From an uncultured Alistipes sp. (GTDB lineage: Bacteria > Bacteroidota > Bacteroidia > Bacteroidales > Rikenellaceae): DNA of 44,235 nt. The translations under genes were made by a program, and so were the position numbers. Location of the stretch: positions 1 through 44,235 of the forward strand of contig CALUOX010000009.1 of assembly GCA_944322375.1 (NCBI GenBank), in the 5' to 3' direction. The notes beneath the pieces are model-generated. The model saw nothing but the letters and a program-made list of their open reading frames with translations. It was not told the DNA's origin and did no database searches. Each line of letters opens with the position of its first letter. The first letter of the stretch is position 1. This document shows positions 30,915-42,010 of this stretch, piece after piece.

Positions 30915-32282
30915 TCAATAACGGAATACGTTGGCCCAACGTTTCGCACCGGGGCCGTGCGAAGCAAAACCAAGATAGAGATTTCCATGTTTCATCTTGA
31001 TGCCTTCGGCCTCCATGTATCCTTTTGCGTCGCTGCCGCAGATTCCGGCCGCCACCAGCGCCGCCTCGTCCTCAATGGCCTGAATGCGGGTGCGGGGGAC
31101 AACGATCGTTCCCGTCATGTCGAGCACCGTTACGAATGCAATCGATTTGGGCTGGTTGTTGACCGCCTCGCCCTCAAAGAAATAAAGCAACCCGTCCTGC
31201 ACGTCAAATCCCTGGAAATCATACTGGCTCAGATTGCCGGTCCCCGGAACCGAGGTGGTAAAGGAGCCTATGGGAGTCACCGACGTCAGGTCGTGCGCCT
31301 CGATGGTTCGCGTTTCGGATTTCTGCGGAGCATCGGTCTCCTCGCCGCCATAGGTCTGCTTGCGCAGGGTGACACTGCTCAGCGGCGTGGCCATCGCCTC
31401 GCTCAGCCGATAGAAATAGAAATCGCGGACCCCGGTCGTCGAGGCCGTAATACAGAGCACGTCGTTATCCATGTCGATGGCCGGGTGAACATTCCATTTG
31501 TTCTTGATGAAGAAGGTTTCGCCGCTGCTCAGATCGACGCGCTTTCCCGCTTCGTACTTCACGCGCGACACAGTATTGCTCTGGCTGTAGGATCCGTCCG
31601 AAAGTTTGTTCCCGTTGCTGCCGACCCAGATATACCGATCGGCCCCATCCTCTTCGACGGCGAAGTTGGTGCCGTGCCCGAACCAACGCAGTGTCATGAA
31701 GTCTTTGGGCGACTGGTTGGGCGCACCCCGCAGGACATAGATCAGTTCGGGATCGTTGCCGCCCAACTGCATGTACCAGAGTGTACCGTCGCTCTCGACA
31801 TCGAAACACTGCATGACACTGTTCCGTTCGAGATAGACCGACTGACTGTAAACGAGCGCATCGGAGAGAGGCTCCGAGAGGCTCTCCGCCAGCGAGGCGT
31901 CGATCTGACGGCGCACCGTCACCCCTGCAGCCGCGGATACGCCGTCACCGGCCGATTCGCAAAAAATGGTTGCCGTACCGGCCGCATGTCCCGTCACACG
32001 CCCCTGCGCATCGACGGTGGCGATTTTCGGCGAGGAGCTGCGCCAGCTCAGACCGTAGGGATTCGCAGCCGTATCGTAGGTCTCGGCCGCCGTGGAGCCG
32101 CTGCGGAAGACGCGGACGTGCAGCTGCACGGTCTCCTCCGGCTCTATCGTGAGCGCCTTCTCTTCAATAATGATGGTTCCAATCCCAAAGGACTCCTCCT
32201 CTTTCTGGCAAGCCGGAAAGAGCTGTGTTCCGACAAGGAGCAACGACAGCAGAGAGACTCGGAATGCAACAAGTTTTTTCAT
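30915..32282 (-). CDS. Lipoprotein with Ig-like (BIG2) domain and beta-propeller-like region
   Basis: This is a predicted 455-residue lipoprotein. The signal peptide ends in FPAC (Cys25), consistent with lipidation. Residues about 35-125 form a BIG2-like domain (IEPEETVQLHVRVF, SSPKIATVDAQGRVTGHAAG). The remainder has repeated strands such as VMQCFDVESDGTLWYMQLGG and DRYIWVGSNGN, which remind me of helveticin-J-like or other propeller proteins; this link is tentative. No partner genes are adjacent. A surface role is an inference. Confidence 0.72.
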   Translation of the reverse strand: MKKLVAFRVSLLSLLLVGTQLFPACQKEEESFGIGTIIIEEKALTIEPEETVQLHVRVFRSGSTAAETYDTAANPYGLSWRSSSPKIATVDAQGRVTGHAAGTATIFCESAGDGVSAAAGVTVRRQIDASLAESLSEPLSDALVYSQSVYLERNSVMQCFDVESDGTLWYMQLGGNDPELIYVLRGAPNQSPKDFMTLRWFGHGTNFAVEEDGADRYIWVGSNGNKLSDGSYSQSNTVSRVKYEAGKRVDLSSGETFFIKNKWNVHPAIDMDNDVLCITASTTGVRDFYFYRLSEAMATPLSSVTLRKQTYGGEETDAPQKSETRTIEAHDLTSVTPIGSFTTSVPGTGNLSQYDFQGFDVQDGLLYFFEGEAVNNQPKSIAFVTVLDMTGTIVVPRTRIQAIEDEAALVAAGICGSDAKGYMEAEGIKMKHGNLYLGFASHGPGAKRWANVFRY

Positions 32283-32453
32283 GTTCCGTTGTTGTTTGTC
32301 AACATTTAATTTCAGATCCCGTCAGATCCCGATCGTCCGGCTCGTACAAGACCAGCCTCCGCAGACGGCGGACAGGACTGCCCGTCCGACAGGAGGGGCT
32401 TCCGACGAATTTTCGGCCGGTTTTCCATTTGCGGCGCATCGGACCCCGACATG

Positions 32454-32483
32454 CAAAGATAGGAAAATAATCGGCATTCCAAA
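32454..32483 (-). promoter_or_regulatory. Promoter of the BIG2 lipoprotein
   Basis: The minus strand has TTTG (32483-32480), 18 bp, then TATCTTTG (32461-32454). The leader would be about 165 nt with no other gene in it. Confidence 0.6.
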
Positions 32484-32517
32484 AGGAGCAAAGAGAAAAA
32501 ACAAGGCAAACCGGGTC

Positions 32518-32565
32518 TGCTGAAACCCGTTTCAGCACCGGGAAGCCTCGGTCATGAGGCTTCCC
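32518..32565. other. Two adjacent perfect hairpins
   Basis: TGCTGAAAC/GTTTCAGCA (32518-32537) is followed 2 bp later by GGGAAGCCTC/GAGGCTTCCC (32540-32565). No T run follows either. They lie between the two divergent promoters of the lipoprotein and rpmI. Confidence 0.65.
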
Positions 32566-32668
32566 GTCGTCGTGTGCGGAAATTCCGCTTCCGGGGTGAA
32601 ACCACAACGCGCAACGAATCTTCGGGGCAAAAAAAAGGAATCGGGAAGAGAATCTTGAAAAAAATTCG

Positions 32669-32676
32669 TATCTTTG
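32669..32676 (+). promoter_or_regulatory. rpmI-rplT -7 box
   Basis: TATCTTTG lies 34 bp before the rpmI ATG. No exact -33 TTTG is found at the usual distance. Confidence 0.65.
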
Positions 32677-32709
32677 CACGCTATGTTTAACTAAAGTACA
32701 ATTACGACA

Positions 32710-32904
32710 ATGCCAAAAATGAAAACAAATGCCGCTGCAAAGAAGCGTTTTACTTTCACCGGCACAGGTAAGATCAAGCGCAAACACGCTTATCACAGTC
32801 ACATCCTGACCAAAAAGACGAAAAAACAGAAGCGCAACCTCTGCTATTCGGGCACGGTTTCGCCGGCCGACGAGGCCAAAATCAAGAACCTGCTGGTCAA
32901 ATAA
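32710..32904 (+). CDS. rpmI: 50S ribosomal protein L35
   Basis: This 64-residue, very basic protein has the L35 hallmark start [20 protein letters not shown] and the [11 protein letters not shown] segment. Its length matches L35. It has its own promoter and precedes rplT by 101 bp. infC, which commonly lies upstream, is absent here. Confidence 0.96.
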
Positions 32905-33005
32905 GACCGGTGTGAGTTCGGAACAAATTATTAACACGGAGCGAATCAGCCCCGAAGAACGTGAGAGAATCACGTCGCTGACAGCTCTATCAAAAACTTT
33001 TACGT

Positions 33006-33353
33006 ATGCCACGTTCAGTTAACGCTGTTGCGTCCCGCGCAAGAAGAAAAAAGGTTTTGAAGCTTGCCAAAGGTAACTTTGGTTCAAGGGGAAATGTCTG
33101 GACCGTAGCGAAAAACACGGTCGAGAAGGGTCTGCAGTTTGCCTATGCACACCGTCAGATCAAAAAACGTACATTCCGCTCGTTGTGGATTACGCGTATC
33201 AACGCAGCCGTCCGCGCACAGGGAATGACCTACTCGGAGTTCATCGGTAAAGTCAACGCCAAGGGAATCGCCCTCAACCGCAAGGTTCTGGCCGATCTTG
33301 CGATGAACGAACCGAAGGCATTCGAAGCAATTGTAAAAATGGTTAAAGAATAG
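33006..33353 (+). CDS. rplT: 50S ribosomal protein L20
   Basis: This 115-residue rRNA-binding protein begins [23 protein letters not shown] and has [20 protein letters not shown], both diagnostic for L20. In other bacteria L20 represses its own operon through a leader structure. The 101-bp spacer after rpmI could serve this, but I could not identify a matching structure. A strong terminator follows 107 bp downstream. Confidence 0.97.
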
Positions 33354-33460
33354 CGATCGACGATCGTACGACAGCAGTTTTCGCTGCCGAACGGTCAACG
33401 ATCGAGGAGTGTTGCGCCATAGCGACCGGTCCTGCCGGAAACGCGACAGCTCTCAAAAGA

Positions 33461-33496
33461 ACGGGACGACGATTCACGAATCGTCGTCCCGTTTCG
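33461..33496 (+). terminator. rpmI-rplT terminator
   Basis: ACGGGACGACGATT pairs with AATCGTCGTCCCGT (14 bp, short loop) and is followed by TTCGTTT. Confidence 0.8.
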
Positions 33497-33526
33497 TTTA
33501 CGAGATGCCCCGGCAAGGCAACGACA

Positions 33527-33934
33527 TCAGCAGGCACCCTTGGCGGTGCGATATGCATCGATCAACTCCTCGGGCGTGCAGCGCGTATAGATGATCCGGA
33601 TGATCTGATACCCTTCGTCGGGCGACACGCCGATCTTTTCGGCGACCTTTCCCGCCGCCTTGCGCAAACGATTGATCTCCTCCTGTTTCTCGAAACGACG
33701 GCCAAACTGCTGCCCGGTTTCAATCAACCACTCATATACCTCGACATTGAGCGCATTGTCGGGCGTAATCCCCTTGGCCAGCATGAAAAGGCCCTTCTGA
33801 CGCTCTTCGGCTTCGGTTTGCTTCCGTTCGACGTATCCCTCATAGAGATCATCCTCTTTCGAGGGCTGTTTTTTCCACCAGAAATAGACGATCGCGATGA
33901 CGGCGATGATAATGATAGTTGTCAACATACGCAA
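33527..33934 (-). CDS. Small single-span membrane protein of unknown function
   Basis: This 135-residue protein has an N-terminal membrane segment (MLTTIIIIAVIAIVYFWW) and a charged helical cytoplasmic or periplasmic part, rich in Glu, Lys and Arg. No family is recognised. The start could be Met at 33934 or 33928. It converges on rplT. Confidence 0.7.
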   Translation of the reverse strand: MRMLTTIIIIAVIAIVYFWWKKQPSKEDDLYEGYVERKQTEAEERQKGLFMLAKGITPDNALNVEVYEWLIETGQQFGRRFEKQEEINRLRKAAGKVAEKIGVSPDEGYQIIRIIYTRCTPEELIDAYRTAKGAC

Positions 33935-34036
33935 ATGTGTTTAAGTTAGCAGGTGTTGTTTTTGTTAAAGTGTTGTTTGACAGGGAGCAAGATAATAATA
34001 TTTTTTCAAATCGCCAAATTGCCGCCGCAACGGTCC

Positions 34037-34108
34037 GACGATCGGACAAGGAGCTGGAATGACGATCGATCAAGAAGTTGGAACGATGATCGGTCAAGGG
34101 ACTGGAGC
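34037..34108 (+). repeat. Three tandem copies of a 24-bp repeat
   Basis: Units GAyGATCGG/ATCAAG..TGGAAy begin at 34037, 34061 and 34085, each 24 bp, with 3-7 differences between copies. A plus frame would encode the 8-residue repeat SWNDDRSR, but no start or homology supports a protein. Confidence 0.8.
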
Positions 34109-34164
34109 CGGATTCCGGAAACCGCGCCATGGGCTTCCTCCCGCTTCCGTGCCGACAGCCGATA

Positions 34165-34292
34165 CGGAACGACGGTATTCCGAAACAACGGCACTCCGAA
34201 GCAATGGTGCTCCAAGACGACGATGTCCCGAAACGACGGCACTCCGAAGCAATGGTGCTCCAAGACGACGATGTCCTGAAACGACGGTCCCC
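34165..34292 (+). repeat. Eight tandem copies of a 16-bp repeat with 48-bp higher order
   Basis: Eight 16-bp units run without gaps, for example CGAAACGACGGCACTC, CGAAGCAATGGTGCTC and CAAGACGACGATGTCC. These three types recur in the same order, so the array also has a 48-bp period (units 2-4 and 5-7 are almost identical). It ends 24 bp before the -7 box of the AlkD-like gene. Confidence 0.88.
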
Positions 34293-34315
34293 GAAGCGGA
34301 ATACAAAAAAATCGC

Positions 34316-34323
34316 TATCTTTG
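34316..34323 (+). promoter_or_regulatory. -7 box of the alkD-like/fur genes
   Basis: TATCTTTG lies 31 bp before the AlkD-like ATG. The expected -33 position falls at the end of the 16-bp array and has no TTTG. Confidence 0.6.
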
Positions 34324-34353
34324 TTCTCGTTACGCCCGATCAATCGACAGACC

Positions 34354-35034
34354 ATGACCATCACCGAACAACTTGCGGCGTTGTCCGATGCCGGCAATGC
34401 GCTTTTCACGGCAAAGCTCACACCGGGGATCGACCCCGCGACGCTGCTGGGCTGCCGCATCCCGCAGCTGCGTCAGCTGGCGCGCCGGCTGCGCGGAAGC
34501 AGCGAAGCCGCGGCATTCATCGCCGCGCTACCGCACCGCTACCACGATGAAAACAACCTGCACGGACTTCTGTTGGGACAGATCCGCGATCCGCAGCAGG
34601 CGCTGACGGCCCTCGAACGTTTTCTGCCCTGCATCGACAACTGGGCGACGTGCGACATTACGGCCGGCAGCATGACGGCACTGGGCCGGGATCCGGGACT
34701 CGTCATGCCGCACATCGAGCGCTGGCTGACCGCAACGCATACCTATACGGTTCGGTTCGGCATCGTGACGCTGCTCGGGCACTACCTCGGCGAACGGTTC
34801 GAACCCCGTCACGCGGCACTTGTCGCAGCCGTACAAAGCGACCAATACTACATCAACATGGCCCGGGCATGGTATTTCAGTACGGCGCTGGTCAAGCATT
34901 ACGACACCATCCTCCCCTGGTTTACCGAACGCCGGCTCGACCGCTGGACACACAACAAGTCGCTGCAAAAGGCCCGCGAAAGTCTGCGAATCGATGCCGA
35001 GCGCAAGACCGCCCTGCAACAGCTCAAATATTGA
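34354..35034 (+). CDS. DNA alkylation repair protein (AlkD-like)
   Basis: This 226-residue protein is built of HEAT-like helical repeats as in AlkD glycosylases, which remove bulky alkylated bases. Supporting segments are LLGCRIPQLRQLARRL, HDENNLHGLLLGQI, LPCIDNWATCDITAGS (with the Asp expected near the lesion) and YYINMARAWYFSTALVKH. The length matches the family. The regulator gene follows 11 bp later, so the two are probably cotranscribed, although no functional link is obvious. Confidence 0.85.
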   Translation: MTITEQLAALSDAGNALFTAKLTPGIDPATLLGCRIPQLRQLARRLRGSSEAAAFIAALPHRYHDENNLHGLLLGQIRDPQQALTALERFLPCIDNWATCDITAGSMTALGRDPGLVMPHIERWLTATHTYTVRFGIVTLLGHYLGERFEPRHAALVAAVQSDQYYINMARAWYFSTALVKHYDTILPWFTERRLDRWTHNKSLQKARESLRIDAERKTALQQLKY

Positions 35035-35045
35035 ACCCGACTACC

Positions 35046-35492
35046 ATGGAAACCGACCGCCACGACTACACGGAGGTGCTGACACGCCACGGCATCCGCC
35101 CCACGGCCATCCGACTGCTCATCTACAGGACGGCTCTTCGCTTTCACGATACGTTCAGCATGGCCGAACTGGAGGATGCACTGGAGAGTGTGGACAAATC
35201 CACCGTTTTCCGCACGTTGTCGCTCTTTGCCGCCCGGCACCTCGTACACGAGATCGAAGACGGCACCGGCTCGACGAAATATTGTCTGTGCCGCAACGAC
35301 CACCCCTGCGGCATCAATGAACTGCACTGTCATTTCCATTGCGAGAGTTGCCACAAGACCTTCTGTCTGGATCACACGCACATCCCCGTCGTGCGCTATC
35401 CGGCAGGGTTCGAGGTGCGGCAGATCGACTACCTGCTCAAGGGGCTGTGCCCCGAATGCCGCGCCAAACAGCACTCCGGGTCCGAACGGTAA
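35046..35492 (+). CDS. Fur family transcriptional regulator, Zur-like
   Basis: This 148-residue regulator has an N-terminal winged helix (HGIRPTAIRLLIYRTALRF and VDKSTVFRTLSLFAARHLV) and a C-terminal metal-binding part. Visible ligands are HCHFHCESCHKTFCLDH (residues 94-110, with Cys99 and Cys102) and CPEC (Cys135 and Cys138), which form the structural zinc site typical of Fur/Zur. The HxHFHC motif is the regulatory region. Whether it senses zinc, iron or another metal cannot be decided. The locus downstream (PqqD-like, His-rich, receptor and HMA genes) is the likely target. Confidence 0.88.
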   Translation: METDRHDYTEVLTRHGIRPTAIRLLIYRTALRFHDTFSMAELEDALESVDKSTVFRTLSLFAARHLVHEIEDGTGSTKYCLCRNDHPCGINELHCHFHCESCHKTFCLDHTHIPVVRYPAGFEVRQIDYLLKGLCPECRAKQHSGSER

Positions 35493-35509
35493 CGGCACCG
35501 ACATGTATT

Positions 35510-35545
35510 TTGCAACCCGGTTGCAACAAAATTCCGCTACTTTTG
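35510..35545 (+). promoter_or_regulatory. Inverted repeat operator and promoter after the Fur-family gene
   Basis: TTGCAAC-CCG-GTTGCAA (35510-35526) is a perfect 7-bp inverted repeat. A -7 box TACTTTTG lies at 35538-35545, so the repeat covers the -33 region and could let a dimeric repressor block it. No TTTG is found at the expected place. Confidence 0.55.
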
Positions 35546-35596
35546 TTCCCGGAAATCGAAACCCGCCCGTACCCTCCCGCCGGAGCGCCCGGCAAA

Positions 35597-35740
35597 AAAG
35601 AGAGGCGCCCGATAGAAAGGGAGAGGCATCCGGCAGAGAGGAAAGACGCCCAATAGAAAGGGAGAGGCGTCCGACAGAAAGAGAAACGTCCCGGTAGAAA
35701 AGAGAGACATCCGACAGAAAAAGAGAGGCATCCGGGGAGG
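35597..35740 (+). repeat. Seven degenerate copies of a 21-bp repeat
   Basis: Units resembling GAGAGGCrTCCGACAGAAAGA recur with starts 19-21 bp apart. The array fills most of the 304-bp gap between the Fur-family gene and the pqqD-like gene, and would lie in the leader of transcripts from the upstream promoter. Confidence 0.75.
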
Positions 35741-35764
35741 ATTGATGACGAATAAAAAATTTTT

Positions 35765-35779
35765 CGTACCTTTGGTACG
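35765..35779 (+). promoter_or_regulatory. Palindromic -7 region before the pqqD-like gene
   Basis: GTACCTTTGGTAC with flanking C and G (CGTACC-TTT-GGTACG) is a perfect inverted repeat that contains the -7 box TACCTTTG (35767-35774). The ATG follows 22 bp later. A protein bound here would cover the promoter. Confidence 0.6.
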
Positions 35780-35796
35780 TCAAGACAAAACGAACA

Positions 35797-36060
35797 ATGA
35801 GAATTCGCGAAGCATACAAGGTCCGGGAGATGGCCGGCGAGCACGTAGTTATCATGCAGGGCCGCAAGGGCGTTGACATGACGCGCATCATCTCGCTCAA
35901 CGACAGTTCCCTGTACCTTTGGAACGCACTGGCCGGAAAGGATTTCGAGGTCGAAGACGTAACCCGTCTGCTCACCGACCGCTACGAGGTCGATCCGGCA
36001 ACGGCGGCACGTGATGCGGCGGCATGGGTGGAGAAACTCCGTGAATGCAATCTCATCTGA
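35797..36060 (+). CDS. PqqD-like small protein
   Basis: This 87-residue protein resembles the PqqD/RRE fold: MTRIISLNDSSLYLWNALAG, then DVTRLLTDRYEVDPATAARDAAAWVEKL. In RiPP systems such domains bind the leader peptide for a maturase; many stand-alone relatives in Bacteroidota have no known role. No radical-SAM or other maturase is next to it. It precedes the His-rich protein by 15 bp. Confidence 0.8.
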   Translation: MRIREAYKVREMAGEHVVIMQGRKGVDMTRIISLNDSSLYLWNALAGKDFEVEDVTRLLTDRYEVDPATAARDAAAWVEKLRECNLI

Positions 36061-36075
36061 CACAACCAACGACAA

Positions 36076-36498
36076 ATGAAACGGCTGCAACTGCGACGAC
36101 TCCTCTTCCTGCTGCTTCTGACACTGAGCTACACGGGCTCGGTGGCGGGCGACGCATGGATGATGTGGGATCACCTGCGCACGTTTCACGGGATCGAGCA
36201 TGTCTGTCACCACGATGATGCAGCCGGAGAGTGCACGGCCCATCACGCCTCGATGCAGTGCCACTGCTATGGCGGACACGGCGATGCCGACCATCTGCTC
36301 TACGTCGTCGTAACGAACGACGCCTCGCAGCGGCATCACGCTCCCGTCGCCACGCTTCCGCCCTGCCGCACGCAGGCGCTGCCCGATCCGGAGAGTGCTC
36401 TTCTGCATTCGCTCCACCGGATTCAACGAAGCATTGCACTTCTGTCCGCCCCGGCGCTCTCGTCGCGGGGTTTGCGGGCCCCTCCTGTTCTGGCATGA
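36076..36498 (+). CDS. Exported His/Cys-rich small protein
   Basis: This 140-residue protein has a signal peptide (LLFLLLLTLSYTGSVAGD). The following 60 residues are rich in metal-ligand residues, with HGIEHVCHHDD, HHASMQCHCYGGHGDADH and several further histidines, and four Cys. The tail is Leu/Arg/Pro-rich. I cannot assign a family; metal binding is the natural inference, supported by the receptor and HMA genes downstream. Gap to the receptor gene is 65 bp. Confidence 0.72.
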   Translation: MKRLQLRRLLFLLLLTLSYTGSVAGDAWMMWDHLRTFHGIEHVCHHDDAAGECTAHHASMQCHCYGGHGDADHLLYVVVTNDASQRHHAPVATLPPCRTQALPDPESALLHSLHRIQRSIALLSAPALSSRGLRAPPVLA

Positions 36499-36563
36499 TC
36501 CGTTCAAGGCCGGCGTCAGGAACGCCAGCCGAGCATATCATGTCCAATCAACAGGAATCCAAG

Positions 36564-38912
36564 ATGAAAAAAATACTTTTGCAACTTTCACTCATTCTGG
36601 GCCTTGCAACATCCGTTTCGGCCCAGGAAATAAAAGGCACCGTCACCGATACCGAGAATCAGCCGCTTGTCGGCGCCTCGGTCTATTGGGCCGGTACAAC
36701 CATCGGAGCAAGCACCTCGGTCAACGGAGACTATTCGGTGCATCGGGTAAAGAATTACGACCTGCTGGTCGCCTCCTACCTGGGATATGTCAACGACACG
36801 ATCCGCATCGAAGCGGGCGTCGCGGAACAGAACTTCCAACTCAAGAGCGAAGGGGTCGATATCGAGAGCGTCGTGGTGGAGAGCACGCTGGGCGGCAACT
36901 ACATCAAGCGTGACGGCATTCTGAAGGGCGAAACCATCTCGTTTGCGGGTCTGTGCAAGATGGCCTGCTGCAACCTGGCCGAGTCGTTCGAGAACTCGGC
37001 TTCGGTCACGGTGGGTTACAGCGACGCCATATCGGGAGCACGCCAGATCAAGATGCTGGGACTGGCCGGCACCTACACGCAGATCCTCGACGAGAACCGT
37101 CCGATCATGCGGGGCCTGTCCGCCCCCTACGGGCTGAGCTACACGCCGGGCATGTGGCTCAACTCGATCCAGGTCTCGAAAGGCATCTCGTCGGTCACGG
37201 CGGGGCATGAGGCCATTACGGGCCAGATCAACCTCGAACACCGCAAGCCGACGGACGATGAACGGCTCTTCGTCAACCTCTACTTCGACGACGAGCTGAA
37301 ACCGGAACTGAATCTCTCGACGGCCCTGCCGGTCACGGCGGACAAGAAACTGACAACCGTCATCCTGGCCCACGGCTCGATGGACACAAAGTCATACGAC
37401 CACAACCACGACGGCTTCCGCGATCTTCCGGAGACGAAGATGGCCCACTTTGCAAACCGCTGGCTCTATGCGGCCGACAACGGACTGCAGCTGCGCTGGG
37501 GTTTCAAGGTTACGGCCGAGAACCGGCTGGGCGGACAGATGGGATACAGGAACTCGATGCGCGAGGAGATGATCCAGCGGGCACCGGATCCCGACCCGAT
37601 CTACGGATCGCTGATCCGCAACCGGGAGTTCAACGGCTACATCAAACTGGGCATGCCGGTAGGGGCTGCGGTCTATGACGAGGAGGAGCAGGAGGAGCTG
37701 CGTTCGAACATCGCCATCGTGGCCGATTTCGACCACTTCAACGAATCCTCCTACTTCGGGCTGAACGACTACGCGGGCAACGAGAACTCCGTATCGCTCA
37801 ACGCCATGTACAGCCACTATTTCACCTACCGGTCGTCGCTGATCATGGGCGTATCGGCCCATCTGCAGTCAATCAACGAACGTCTGGTCAACGACTTTGT
37901 CGAGCAACAGAAGATCGAGGGCCGCACCTACACGATGGACCGCAACGAAAACGAAGCCGGCATCTATGCCGAATATACCTATTCGATCAAGGATCGCTTC
38001 TCGTTGGTAGCGGGGGCGCGCGGCGACTACAACTCATTCTATGACAAGTATTTCTTCACACCGCGCGGCCACATCAAATGGAATATCACGCGCCTGCTGA
38101 CACTGCGGGCCTCGGCGGGTCTGGGATACCGCTCGACGAACCTCATCACGGACAACATCGGCATTCTGGCCACAGGACGCCGCATCGCTTTCGACGGATA
38201 CTCCTGGAACTCCTACTACAATTTCGAGGAAACGTTCCGCAATTTCGACCGGATGGAGAAGGCGCTCACCTGGGGCGGCAGCCTTACACAGACCTTCGGA
38301 CTCGTCAAGGCGGAGGATGCGACGCTGAGTTTCGACTACTTCCGCACGCGCTTCTACAATCAGGTGGTGGCCGATCAGGAGTACAACGCCACCGAGGTGA
38401 TGTTCTACAACACCGACGGGCGCTCCTACACCGATACGTTCCAGGTGGATTTCACCTGGACGCCGGTCGAGCGGCTCGACATCTTCGCCACCTACCGCTA
38501 CACGAATTCGGCGATCACGCTCAACCGCCCCAGCGGCCTGCAGGAGCGGGTGGAGCGGCCGCTCGTAAGCCGTTACAAGACGTTGCTGAACGTGCAATAC
38601 GCCACGAAGTTCCGCCGCTGGACCTTCGATGCGACCGCACAGCTCAATGGTCCGATGCGTCTGCCGTCGATGACGGGCAACCCCGCGATCACGGAGCTCT
38701 CACCCAGCTATCCGATCTTCTTTGCGCAGGTAAGCCGCAAGATCAAGAAGGTGGATCTCTATCTGGGTTGCGAGAACATCGGCAACTACCGGCAGAAGAA
38801 TCCGATCATCGATCCGCAGCACCCCTTTGCCACGACCTTCAACTCGTCGGTCGTATGGGGACCGTTGATGGGCCGGAAGTTCTACATCGGGCTGCGCTGG
38901 AACCTCTATTGA
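36564..38912 (+). CDS. TonB-dependent receptor with Cys-rich plug motif
   Basis: This is a 782-residue outer-membrane receptor. The signal peptide ends about residue 20 (SVSAQE). Residues 22-97 are a carboxypeptidase-regulatory-like domain (IKGTVTDTENQPLVGASVYW). The plug has CKMACCNLAESFENSASV (Cys131, 135, 136) and GARQIKMLGLAGTYTQILDE, then a beta barrel that ends GRKFYIGLRWNLY with an aromatic terminal residue. The CxxxCC in the plug is unusual and may bind a soft metal. I chose the ATG at 36564; Met at 36540 would add eight residues. It probably imports a metal or metal complex, with TonB energy. Confidence 0.88.
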   Translation: MKKILLQLSLILGLATSVSAQEIKGTVTDTENQPLVGASVYWAGTTIGASTSVNGDYSVHRVKNYDLLVASYLGYVNDTIRIEAGVAEQNFQLKSEGVDIESVVVESTLGGNYIKRDGILKGETISFAGLCKMACCNLAESFENSASVTVGYSDAISGARQIKMLGLAGTYTQILDENRPIMRGLSAPYGLSYTPGMWLNSIQVSKGISSVTAGHEAITGQINLEHRKPTDDERLFVNLYFDDELKPELNLSTALPVTADKKLTTVILAHGSMDTKSYDHNHDGFRDLPETKMAHFANRWLYAADNGLQLRWGFKVTAENRLGGQMGYRNSMREEMIQRAPDPDPIYGSLIRNREFNGYIKLGMPVGAAVYDEEEQEELRSNIAIVADFDHFNESSYFGLNDYAGNENSVSLNAMYSHYFTYRSSLIMGVSAHLQSINERLVNDFVEQQKIEGRTYTMDRNENEAGIYAEYTYSIKDRFSLVAGARGDYNSFYDKYFFTPRGHIKWNITRLLTLRASAGLGYRSTNLITDNIGILATGRRIAFDGYSWNSYYNFEETFRNFDRMEKALTWGGSLTQTFGLVKAEDATLSFDYFRTRFYNQVVADQEYNATEVMFYNTDGRSYTDTFQVDFTWTPVERLDIFATYRYTNSAITLNRPSGLQERVERPLVSRYKTLLNVQYATKFRRWTFDATAQLNGPMRLPSMTGNPAITELSPSYPIFFAQVSRKIKKVDLYLGCENIGNYRQKNPIIDPQHPFATTFNSSVVWGPLMGRKFYIGLRWNLY

Positions 38913-38924
38913 TCCATTAATGCC

Positions 38925-38983
38925 GGACGGATGCTGCAAGCAGCATGAGGATTTGCCGATGCAGCAAAAGGGCATCCGTCCGA
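38925..38983 (+). other. Intercistronic stem-loop region between receptor and HMA genes
   Basis: An 11-bp perfect long-range stem (CGGACGGATGC at 38925-38935, GCATCCGTCCG at 38973-38983) and an alternative inner hairpin TGCTGC-AA-GCAGCA (38933-38946) lie after the receptor stop. They overlap by three bases, so they may be mutually exclusive or cooperate. No T run follows, so this is more likely an mRNA-stability element than a terminator. Confidence 0.55.
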
Positions 38984-39036
38984 CATCACATCATACACTA
39001 ACAGAAAGCCAAGTAACTAACCAACACGAAACGATT

Positions 39037-39354
39037 ATGAAAAAGATTCTATTCGTCTGCCTTGCGGCAGCACTGAGCCTGAGTGTCGGGACACTCTCGG
39101 CCAAGAACGACAAAAAGGCGAAGACCGTCACGACGGTCTTCACGACCGACATCGACTGCGAACACTGCGCGGACCGCATCATGGCGAATATTCCCTTTGA
39201 GAAGGGGGTCAAGGATGTCAAGGTGGATGTTCCCAGCAAGGAGGTAACGGTCGTGTACGACGCAACGAAAAACACGCCTGAAGGGCTGATCAAGGGCTTC
39301 TCGAAGATCCGCGTCAAGGCGGAGGTCAGTGCACCGGAGACCCCGAAGCAATAA
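39037..39354 (+). CDS. Exported heavy-metal-associated (HMA) domain protein
   Basis: This 105-residue protein has a signal peptide (KKILFVCLAAALSLSVGTLSA) followed by a ferredoxin-like HMA domain. The metal site is CEHC (Cys41, Cys44) in TTDIDCEHCADRIMANIPFE, and the fold continues with VKDVKVDVPSKEVTVVYDATK. HMA domains carry Cu(I), Zn or Cd; a periplasmic version may pass metal on from the receptor. It ends with a strong terminator. Confidence 0.88.
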   Translation: MKKILFVCLAAALSLSVGTLSAKNDKKAKTVTTVFTTDIDCEHCADRIMANIPFEKGVKDVKVDVPSKEVTVVYDATKNTPEGLIKGFSKIRVKAEVSAPETPKQ

Positions 39355-39397
39355 CTTGAGGCCGGCAGACCGGTCCGCCGGCTGCCTCCAAAACGGG

Positions 39398-39434
39398 ACG
39401 AGCCGTCCGCAACTGGTTGCGGACGGCTCGTTTC
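39398..39434 (+). terminator. Terminator of the receptor/HMA operon
   Basis: ACGAGCCGTCCGCAAC and GTTGCGGACGGCTCGT form a 16-bp perfect stem with a 2-base central gap, followed by TTTCG. Confidence 0.85.
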
Positions 39435-39521
39435 GTATTCATAAACACTGGAGTGCTAACAGAAAGCACCTGTAAGGGAAACAATCAGCGTTATTATCGG
39501 CTAATCTGCTACGGTCCCTTC

Positions 39522-39533
39522 TGTTGCAACAGG
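39522..39533. promoter_or_regulatory. Perfect palindrome CTGTTGCAACAG
   Basis: This 12-bp palindrome contains GTTGCAAC, which is also the half-site arrangement found before the pqqD-like gene. It lies in the 158-bp gap between the terminator and the next (minus) gene, and no promoter is obvious beside it. Confidence 0.35.
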
Positions 39534-39592
39534 CTGAATTGAAACAGCACGTCTTTGTCGACAACAGAGTCTCAGTCCGGACCTGTGCATCT

Positions 39593-40303
39593 TTATTCCA
39601 TCGGGAAGATCCGCACGTCGGTCACATCGGCCACCTCGCGCGCCAACCGATCGATGTCGGTCTTCTCCTCGACCTCTCCGTAGTGATAGGGATAGAAGAT
39701 CCGGGGCCGCAGGGTCCGTACCGCCTCAACGGCCTCATCCACCGTCATCGTATAGGGCTGGTTGACCGGCAGGAAGGCCACATCGAGATCCTTCAGTGCC
39801 AGCATCTCGGGCGTCGGTTCACTGTCGCCGGCGATGTAGATGCGCGTGCCGCCCAACGTCAGCAGATAGCCGCAGTCCTCCCGTTCACGGGGATGGAACT
39901 GCAAATGACCCTCGCTGGTATTGTACGCTGCAACGGCTTCGACATGAATGCACGGGAAGGGCTCCGACACCGCACCCGGTTTCATCGCCTCGCATCCGCC
40001 GCCGAGCATATCGGCCGAGGTATGGTCACAGAGGATGACCGTCTGCGGCGTCTTCACGGCATCGATGGCGGCACGGTCGAGATGATCGTAATGCGAATGG
40101 GTCACCAGAATCACATCCGCCTTGGGCAGTCTCCCGTAATCGGCATACATCGCCACCGGATCGACATAGATGTGCCGGCCGGCAAACTCAATCGCCAGCG
40201 ATGCATGCTTGAAGAAGGTAAAGGTGATCGGCGAGCCGTCACGCGACGTCACCGTATCGGTCGGCCAGGCCGGCGACTCCTTTTTTCTGAACAGTCCGAA
40301 CAT
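39593..40303 (-). CDS. Metallo-beta-lactamase-fold hydrolase
   Basis: This 236-residue protein of the MBL superfamily (UPF0173/UlaG-like) has the metal motif VTHSHYDHLDRA, a further metal-binding residue in IYIAGDSEPTPEM and a closing His in FYPYHYGE. The substrate is unknown. The N-terminus includes MFGLFRKKESPAWP, with no signal peptide, so it is cytoplasmic. A weak -7 box TATCTTCG lies on the minus strand at 40337-40330. Confidence 0.85.
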   Translation of the reverse strand: MFGLFRKKESPAWPTDTVTSRDGSPITFTFFKHASLAIEFAGRHIYVDPVAMYADYGRLPKADVILVTHSHYDHLDRAAIDAVKTPQTVILCDHTSADMLGGGCEAMKPGAVSEPFPCIHVEAVAAYNTSEGHLQFHPREREDCGYLLTLGGTRIYIAGDSEPTPEMLALKDLDVAFLPVNQPYTMTVDEAVEAVRTLRPRIFYPYHYGEVEEKTDIDRLAREVADVTDVRIFPME

Positions 40304-40329
40304 AACGATGAAACTTGAATGGTTCGCAA

Positions 40330-40337
40330 CGAAGATA
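40330..40337 (-). promoter_or_regulatory. Weak -7 box of the MBL-fold gene
   Basis: The minus strand reads TATCTTCG, one mismatch from TAnnTTTG, 27 bp before the ATG. No -33 box was found. Confidence 0.4.
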
Positions 40338-40440
40338 CGAATTTTCCGCTACAATTCGCCCCTGCACACAAAATTTCGGAATATCCCGCTATTCCGGCCT
40401 TCGCGGCCGGCACATTACCGTCCGGCCGCAAGTCACGACC

Positions 40441-40540
40441 CTTTCCCGGCCCGGCACCTCCCTTTTTCAGACCGTCACGCACCTTTCGGCTCGCACCTCT
40501 CCCCCGAGACCGACACATCCCTTTTCGGCCCGGCACATCC
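40441..40540 (+). repeat. Degenerate 20-bp repeat array
   Basis: Units beginning CTTTCCCGG, CTTTTTCAG, CTTTCGGC, CCCGAGAC and CTTTTCGG start at about 40441, 40462, 40483, 40502 and 40521, and end in CACmTCC-like sequence. The copies are diverged. They lie in the 477-bp gap between the MBL-fold gene and the MFS gene; the rest of the gap holds only the terminator near 40670. Confidence 0.45.
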
Positions 40541-40651
40541 ACTCCACGCATCCCGTCCCCTGCCCCTCCGTCGGTTCGATATCCGCACGGGCGGTTCGGC
40601 CGAACCCCGTTCCATCCAACCGCTGCCAGTACAAAAAGCCGCCGAATTGTC

Positions 40652-40696
40652 GCACAGAAAAAAAACAGGCCCTGCCGCAACGCTGTTACGGCAGGG
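40652..40696 (-). terminator. Terminator of the MFS gene
   Basis: On the minus strand, CCCTGCCG and CGGCAGGG form an 8-bp stem (40696-40670) followed by a run of eight T. Confidence 0.8.
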
Positions 40697-40780
40697 TCGG
40701 ATCTTACAATGCAGGGAGTGCAGTCAGTGAATCGGTCGTCCTTGCCGCACGATTCTCTGCCTGCACTTGCGGCGTACACG

Positions 40781-42010
40781 CTATCTGGCGGTTTTTGCCG
40801 GCGAGATGAAGTAGGTCATGACGGCACTCAACAGATAGAGCACGGAGAGGGTCCAGGCCACGCCCTCGTATCCGATGGGGCCGGCCAACAAGGCAACCAG
40901 CAGCGGACCGATAAAGGTCGAGAGACCGGCACCCAGATTGAGCACCGAGACGGCGGCACCCTTGTCCTTTTCCACAAGCGACGGCACCAGGGCGCTCAGC
41001 GGAACGAATCCGGCCAGCATGATGCTCCAGGCCGTACCGCATAGCATGATAAACCAATAGTTGTTGTATATCACGGGAGCATAGAAGAAGAGGAGCACCG
41101 TGACCGCACAGCCGATGCTTCCGAACCAGATGACGGTCCGTCCCCAACCGATACGGTCCCCGACGATTCCAAAGACGAGATTGAAGACGATATTGATCAT
41201 GAAGATCGAGCCCCAGATTGAGGCCCACGCGAAGTCATCGACCCCGTAATCCTTCATGTACAGGGGCATGAAGACGACGAACGCGAACTGCGAGGAGGTA
41301 TTGATGATCCGCACGATACCGCCCATCAGCACCTTGGGTTCGCGCTTCATGATGGCGAGACCGTTCAACAGCTCCTTGAACTTGGAGGCTCCGGAGGCCT
41401 TTTCATCCACACCGGCGGCGAAGAGGTTCGTATCGTCGCATTTGTTGATCCACAGTGCGAGCAGCGTACCGACCGAAGTGAAGATAAGAGCCGTAAAGAG
41501 TGCCGGCACGGGTCCGAAATGCTGCATGGCAAAGACGCCGTAATAAGCACCGAGGACGTTCAGCCCGCCCGTAAAGACGAACCAGAACCACCCCTGCGCG
41601 GAGCTGAGGCGGGATTTCTCGACACGATAGGTGATCCACACCATGAATGTATATGCGAACAACGGATATCCCATACCCTTGATGGCATAGGTAATCAGGA
41701 GAGTCGGATAGTTCATGGAGGTCATACCGATCCCCGCAAAGCTCGACATGCCGATCAGATAGGCCAGATACCCAAAGAACATTGTCCGTTTCACGCCGAA
41801 TGTCTCGGCGATGACCCCCGACATCCACGAAGCGAGTGCGACCACAATGCCATAGACACTGAAGAGCAGAGCGGAATTGAACCCCTGCGCATCGATGTAC
41901 TTGCTGAGCCAGGTCAGTTCGACGCCGTCCCCGATCATGAAGATCATCACACCGAGGAATCCCCACGTCAAGGTACGTGGCAGTCCGATTTTGTCAAGAA
42001 AAGCTGTCAT
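40781..42010 (-). CDS. MFS transporter, polyol-permease-like
   Basis: This 409-residue inner-membrane protein has twelve predicted membrane segments. The start LGVMIFMIGDGVELTWLSKYI and the SWMSGVIAETFGVKRTMFFGY loop resemble RbtT/DalT-type polyol permeases. An acidic-basic central loop (KCDDTNLFAAGVDEKASGASK) follows segment six. The substrate is not certain, as no catabolic genes are adjacent. It has its own promoter and terminator. Confidence 0.8.
   Translation of the reverse strand: MTAFLDKIGLPRTLTWGFLGVMIFMIGDGVELTWLSKYIDAQGFNSALLFSVYGIVVALASWMSGVIAETFGVKRTMFFGYLAYLIGMSSFAGIGMTSMNYPTLLITYAIKGMGYPLFAYTFMVWITYRVEKSRLSSAQGWFWFVFTGGLNVLGAYYGVFAMQHFGPVPALFTALIFTSVGTLLALWINKCDDTNLFAAGVDEKASGASKFKELLNGLAIMKREPKVLMGGIVRIINTSSQFAFVVFMPLYMKDYGVDDFAWASIWGSIFMINIVFNLVFGIVGDRIGWGRTVIWFGSIGCAVTVLLFFYAPVIYNNYWFIMLCGTAWSIMLAGFVPLSALVPSLVEKDKGAAVSVLNLGAGLSTFIGPLLVALLAGPIGYEGVAWTLSVLYLLSAVMTYFISPAKTAR

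Follow-up and report, generated by a model that had tools for sequence, protein, structure and literature searches.

Does the TonB-dependent receptor of this locus scavenge metal under scarcity, or is it switched together with the genes of metal export? The question is raised by a row of five plus-strand genes (35046-39354) encoding a Fur-family regulator, a PqqD-like protein, a His/Cys-rich protein, the receptor and an HMA protein. They lie in the window, as we call the whole analysed stretch of 44,235 nucleotides from an uncultured Alistipes sp., whose genome is 98% complete. The original prediction read the row as a metal uptake route under Fur/Zur control. Its description of the layout, namely the five genes in a row, two inverted repeats before the PqqD-like gene, an exported CEHC HMA protein and a strong terminator after the HMA gene, was borne out by open reading frames, Pfam scores and the features that follow.

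35046..35492, plus strand: Fur-family regulator (P0001), 148 amino acids (PF01475, 35.3 bits; cut-off 23.1)
35510..35526, plus strand: likely operator TTGCAACCCGGTTGCAA, a perfect 17-bp palindrome between fur and pqqD; sole match in the genome with 0-1 mismatch, with the same motif and spacing in relatives
35538..35545, plus strand: -7 promoter box TACTTTTG, 12 nt past the 16-base operator core
35585..35734, plus strand: degenerate tandem repeats, within the leader that runs from the operator promoter to pqqD
35765-35779, before pqqD: second inverted repeat CGTACCTTTGGTACG, which includes the -7 box TACCTTTG
35767..35774, plus strand: another -7 box, TACCTTTG, likely the promoter of pqqD itself (TAnnTTTG at most 100 nt upstream of pqqD in 63/65 loci)
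35797..36060, plus strand: PqqD-like protein, 87 amino acids (PF05402, 59.1 bits; cut-off 23.4)
36076..36498, plus strand: exported-looking His/Cys-rich protein (P0003), 140 amino acids, signal-like N-terminus, C-terminus RAPPVLA, HYC_CC_PP-like
36540..38912, plus strand: TonB-dependent receptor, plug motif ACCNL (TonB barrel, 59.2 bits; cut-off 27)
39037..39354, plus strand: exported-looking HMA protein with a CEHC site (PF00403, 42.7 bits; cut-off 24.8)
39393..39436, plus strand: terminator-like hairpin after the HMA gene (-37.8 kcal/mol, z -8.2)

Degenerate tandem repeats with periods of 16-48 lie on both sides of the fur region (34036-34287 and 35585-35734). The relative locus L035 has an unchanged gene order, and its proteins show identities to those of the window of 94% for the receptor and 89% for the Fur.

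The gene neighbourhood is beyond chance. A protein scan with PqqD returned 44 loci, 42 of them from Bacteroidales, mostly Alistipes, and two distant (L077, L078); among the 42, the receptor follows PqqD in 39 and the HMA gene in 38, at similar distances. Receptor and HMA gene are both absent from L043, L064 and L075, and L048 stops inside the receptor. The close PqqD relatives of the first three loci (L043:6001, L064:4796, L075:3342) stand in a context of peptide type, with ABC-transporter-, kinase- or peptidase-like genes nearby (names by reading). Upstream of the receptor, the His/Cys-rich gene, recognised by a C-terminal PP, was present in 80 of 92 distinct loci (the rule missed 12, two of these Alistipes-type), and RA directly precedes the PP in all 77 Alistipes-type rows. 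At the order level, 14 loci gave an HMA gene in seven (tblastn), an HMA-like domain that seems to form part of the receptor itself in two more, L085 and L090 (by reading), and a small Cys/His-rich protein in 11 (by reading); none has a Fur of the window's kind. The set of small protein, receptor and HMA recurs at the order level and is thus a Bacteroidales theme. The expected synteny of the four genes held in that they are not shuffled in relatives; it did not extend to PqqD throughout, which lies upstream of 65 of the 79 Alistipes-type receptors and of none of the 13 order-level ones, part of whose loci have little upstream DNA. PqqD looks like an Alistipes addition to the set. Fur, which had been taken for a fixed part of it, adjoins only 15 of the 79 Alistipes-type receptors, a share inflated because some loci were fetched through Fur, and is an accessory.

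The receptor has a plug domain of 22.1 bits, slightly below the Pfam cut-off of 23.9, and at 50.9 bits against the SusC/RagA profile TIGR04056 (cut-off 368) it falls outside that family. The CxxxCC described in its plug is present as LCKMACC, but only the ACC part is invariant across 41 aligned receptors. In a structure comparison many TonB receptors matched, OprC and ZnuD both placing within ranks 26-46 (TMq 0.54-0.56); the plug is poorly defined in the predicted structure (residues 98-169, pLDDT <50). An OprC-like copper site at CxxxCC is unsupported, ACC alone being invariant and the plug poorly modelled.

The His/Cys-rich protein P0003 has no Pfam family over the cut-off and no NCBIfam match up to E 1, and lies outside HYC_CC_PP (NF047658), whose members it resembles as a small exported-looking protein beside the same receptor type. 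Seven order-level small proteins gave one match to this family over the cut-off (L089, 49.9 bits; cut-off 28), two under it (L081, L086) and four without match. No paper on HYC_CC_PP was found in the open-access literature; an earlier description elsewhere is possible. The statement that no named system has this exact set therefore meets a partial precedent, with the L089 protein in HYC_CC_PP and a small Cys/His protein, receptor and HMA together elsewhere. No radical SAM partner of PqqD was noticed on reading the open reading frames of window positions 32000-42000 and of the relatives' loci. PqqD might still belong to a RiPP metallophore route, though no modifying enzyme was noticed alongside and the His/Cys-rich protein looks exported.

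The regulator is the sole PF01475 match in its genome. H68, C82, H94, H96, C99, C102, C107, C135 and C138 are invariant in 35/35 aligned Fur rows, and C99, C102, C135 and C138 make up the CxxC...CxxC site that had been pointed out, predicted to be a structural Cys4 site. Regulatory zinc ligands of the Zur type might be among H68, C82, H94 and H96. In mycobacterial FurB/Zur (2o03) the counterpart of C82 is a Cys and that of C107 a Glu, and a sensor with invariant C82 and C107 besides H68, H94 and H96 would be suited to zinc-like or softer metals. PgFur of Porphyromonas gingivalis is likewise a non-canonical Bacteroidales Fur with two CXXC motifs (PMC6613475); whereas PgFur, in the available part of that paper, lacks histidines important for metal binding, the window subfamily keeps H68, H94 and H96 and adds Cys.

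Furs resembling P0001 (E <=1e-10) occur in 47 of 268 family genomes. Among 42 family loci around such Furs, a census that omits six weaker matches (L192-L197, 28-33% identity) and L127 (Fur cut by the contig end), 15 contain the cassette, 23 an exporter (ATPase 11, RND 8, CDF 4) and four neither. Order-level Fur loci, 20 in number and drawn from the better-scoring of the 102 genomes with a match among 295, contain an exporter in 18 cases and a receptor in none. What stands of the proposed uptake locus is a conserved metal-handling locus with a metalloregulator; what does not is a Fur of the uptake type, since its relatives adjoin exporters. On contig C3 of G060 (L263 and L264, 54-88 kb) five subfamily Furs are clustered with CDF and RND genes, and three of the five operator sites are identical. 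A PF01475 match was found in 14 of the 101 genus genomes; the other 87, many of these incomplete, gave none, and iron and zinc control there may therefore use other regulators.

The palindrome at 35510-35526 is likely the operator of the window Fur, and the fur loci of relatives carry a matching one. With two mismatches allowed, pattern and reversed control gave equal numbers of matches (11 and 11 per strand), and ten genome sites with two mismatches were set aside. Chance occurrence of the palindrome was rejected, given the sole copy with 0-1 mismatch in the genome and reversed controls of 0. Scanning 49 family loci, and leaving uncounted the operators with no downstream TAnnTTT, this box starts exactly 12 nt past the 16-base core in 39/39 family operators that have one, and in 32/32 (Fur-proximal loci) once seven loci chosen by spacing are removed; a wider look over 0-23 nt downstream placed 33/33 boxes at 12. 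The strict rule gave no operator in 10 of the 49 (L122, L123, L164, L169, L176, L183, L187, L189, L190 and L191); L122 has an operator before CACCTTT, L176 is a Fur locus with a Cu-type ATPase, and L187 and L189-L191 have no recognised target. At the order level the first box stands at 12 (16 times), 13 (2), 0 (2), 4 (2) and 16 (1); of the five cases at 0, 4 or 16, L265 and L271 (sites of G472 and G524) are also boxed at 12, and in the remaining three the operator is one already counted, read on the opposite strand.

The operator sits at the place expected of a -33 element. None of 33 operator promoters has a TTG whose end lies 17-22 nt ahead of the -7 box; the clade's 207 TAnnTTTG promoters contain 55 of these, and TTG is commonest there at this distance, with a peak at 20. 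The background promoters show further TTG peaks at 12, 14 and 25 nt, and those at 14 and 25 stem from the arms of the operator itself. The fixed spacing and the missing -33 element suggest promoters that need their regulator; the -33 region is equally a classic place for a repressor to bind.

The exact operator-promoter pattern occurs at 28 sites in 26 of the 268 family genomes, and its reversed control at none. In the 4.5 kb downstream of each of the 28 lies the cassette (14) or an exporter (14: ATPase 6, RND 5, CDF 2, SO_0444 permease 1), labels that derive from similarity to a few query proteins in genomes that are partly incomplete. The exporter need not directly follow the operator: the CDF of G085 begins 1047 nt downstream. 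One example of each class scored over its NCBIfam cut-off: an ATPase of the Cd-type subfamily with 521 bits (cut-off 313.5), an RND pump with 828.7 (701.5), a CDF protein with 252.2 (82.4) and an SO_0444 permease with 366.6 (300). A P0001-like Fur is present in 23 of the 26 genomes with an exact site versus 24 of the 242 without (Fisher p 3e-17); the exceptions are G078, which has a C-terminal Fur fragment just before the operator, G085 and G186. G121, G182 and G066 (77-89% complete) each have one subfamily Fur, whose neighbour is an ATPase gene preceded by an operator of its own; a further operator precedes the receptor or cassette on another contig than fur.

In 295 order-level genomes there are 45 exact sites in 32 genomes, with a control of 0. 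The 37 sites examined, two of them from the family set, precede an exporter in 28 cases, a receptor or cassette in two (the window and G510) and other genes in seven: methyltransferase-like (4), aldo/keto-like (1), outer-membrane-like (1) and a ZIP transporter (1), all named by reading except the ZIP transporter and the L325 methyltransferase. G510 belongs to another bacterial family, and its sole exact operator stands before a receptor that shares the ACCNL plug. Neither an HMA nor a small protein was seen next to this receptor, and the Fur of G510 does not adjoin an exporter. The ZIP transporter (L333:912-1661) and the methyltransferase-like genes (L325, L327, L330 and L332) are operator-preceded genes of other Bacteroidales, and the regulon may therefore extend beyond export. 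In L324 and L335-L339 small His- or Cys-rich exported-looking proteins, like the small protein of the cassette, come first in operator-driven RND operons. In the window's own genome no P1B heavy-metal ATPase reached the cut-off, and a single partial RND, located at the edge of a contig, fell slightly short of it, so that the switch there seems to work for the cassette only.

It might be asked whether the operator reaches the cassette at all. Fur could control only itself or a leader transcript, with the cassette driven from pqqD's own promoter at 35767; pqqD has a -7 box of its own in 63/65 loci, and in the window it is separated from the operator promoter by some 250 nt that include repeats. 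Yet 16 of 18 operator receptor loci have the operator 41-126 nt ahead of where the receptor match begins, and the operators of G121, G182 and G066 precede a receptor on a contig other than that of fur, which makes such a leader-only control very unlikely. Operator control is itself confined to a minority of cassettes: 61 of the 79 Alistipes-type receptors have no operator in 900-1250 nt of upstream DNA, and the cassette therefore mostly works without Fur control.

Fur-family regulators of exporters have precedents, taken here from the available parts of the papers. The arrangement resembles the Zur regulon of Caulobacter crescentus, in which one Fur-family protein stands over TonB receptors and an RND/ZntA exporter operon (PMC4176598) whose first listed gene is CC2720, a DUF2946 protein. 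Caulobacter Zur activates the exporters czrCBA-zntA and represses the TonB receptors, and one regulator can therefore treat the two oppositely; unlike there, receptor and exporters here share one operator-promoter geometry (PMC4176598). Zur of Streptomyces coelicolor likewise activates a metal exporter gene, zitB, with a footprint from -78 to -40 relative to the transcription start, whereas the operator core here lies 13-28 nt before the -7 box (PMC11077047). At zrf/zra of Corynebacterium glutamicum, which encode CDF and ATPase exporters, the Zur site lies over the -35 region, as a 10-1-10 direct repeat in contrast to the inverted repeat here (PMC6103462); that regulon also includes the znuABC uptake genes. 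Exporters are turned on at high zinc in all three, by activation in Caulobacter (PMC4176598) and Streptomyces (PMC11077047) and by relief of repression in Corynebacterium (PMC6103462). The open-access literature gave no paper uniting Alistipes, TonB-dependent, metal efflux and Fur, none combining four of TonB-dependent receptor, Bacteroidetes, copper, PqqD and heavy-metal-associated, and, for TTGCAAC with Bacteroides and Fur, no title on metal regulation among the matches listed.

Because the same operator stands at the same spacing before P1B ATPases, CzcA/CusA pumps, CDF proteins and a Cu/Zn permease, the cassette would be expected to switch like these exporters, and the precedents, in which exporters come on at high zinc, would place it on at metal surplus. 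We put at roughly 60% the probability that an exporter-type Fur drives the cassette from this operator in the exporters' direction, most likely ON at surplus. The Fur of this exporter-serving Bacteroidales subfamily would bind the palindrome at 35510-35526, as co-occurrence and conservation suggest, and would control the -7 promoter 12 nt downstream and hence the pqqD, His/Cys-rich, TonB receptor and HMA genes, the probable signal being a metal of soft or borderline type (Zn/Cd, or Cu). The His/Cys-rich and HMA proteins may bind periplasmic metal and hand it on, and at the outer membrane the receptor may move a metal or the ligand of one.

In a Zur-type uptake locus the sign would be reversed, with metal-bound Fur repressing the operator promoter and scarcity turning on receptor, His/Cys-rich protein and HMA protein for import. 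Zur-repressed uptake genes are often TonB receptors, to judge from the available parts of two reports (PMC6103462, PMC4176598). The invariant H68, C82, H94 and H96, with C82 matching the Cys of 2o03, would suit such a sensor, as would an operator at the position of the -33 element and one order-level site before a ZIP transporter, normally an importer. The same promoter, with identical operator and 12-nt spacing, also precedes exporters, which surplus metal would then shut off, and simple reading beyond the sites brought no ABC zinc importer to notice; this kind of control is accordingly judged unlikely. A switch of metal exchange, in which shortage of a metal A or intrusion of a rival B makes the receptor import A and the pumps export B, would explain how one operator can stand before exporters, a ZIP transporter and a receptor that resembles an importer, and it would accommodate a copper-like HMA protein alongside a tested ATPase of Cd type. 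It requires two metals, which are nowhere indicated here, and an unusual sensor, and we regard it as distinctly unlikely.

Under the preferred reading, of a cassette switched on with the exporters, the direction of transport and the metal are less sharply defined. Import by the receptor is possible. The metal is ambiguous between Zn/Cd and Cu: the nearest solved relatives of the HMA protein are mostly copper domains, the RND example is nearer CusA (510 bits) than ZneA (463), and some Fur loci also contain Cu-type ATPases, while the operator-linked ATPase tested is of Cd type. More tentatively, and with the odds rather against it, receptor, exported HMA protein and His/Cys-rich protein might form an outer-membrane arm of metal defence, on at surplus, with Fur contacting RNA polymerase from a fixed operator that replaces the -33 element and with a receptor for tolerance instead of scavenging.

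A single group of 32 (SH-aLRT 93) takes in all 18 receptors that bear an operator. The G121 and G066 Furs (L131, L132) and that of G182 (L184) lie outside the adjacent cassette Furs, in other well-supported groups, which suggests more than one wiring event. No claim is made of an independent recruitment of the window's Fur, which groups with ATPase-linked Furs (support 80/79) but for which a single clade of cassette Furs is unrejected (AU p 0.203).

With these results a Bacteroidales Fur subfamily gains a rigid promoter geometry and candidates for its operator and regulon, and a recurrent, unexplained set of small protein, receptor and HMA is tied to the control of metal export. The arrangement suggests that in a group of gut bacteria a TonB-dependent receptor is co-switched with metal defence and not with metal starvation. 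If the proposed sign is true, receptors of this kind could no longer be annotated simply as scavengers.
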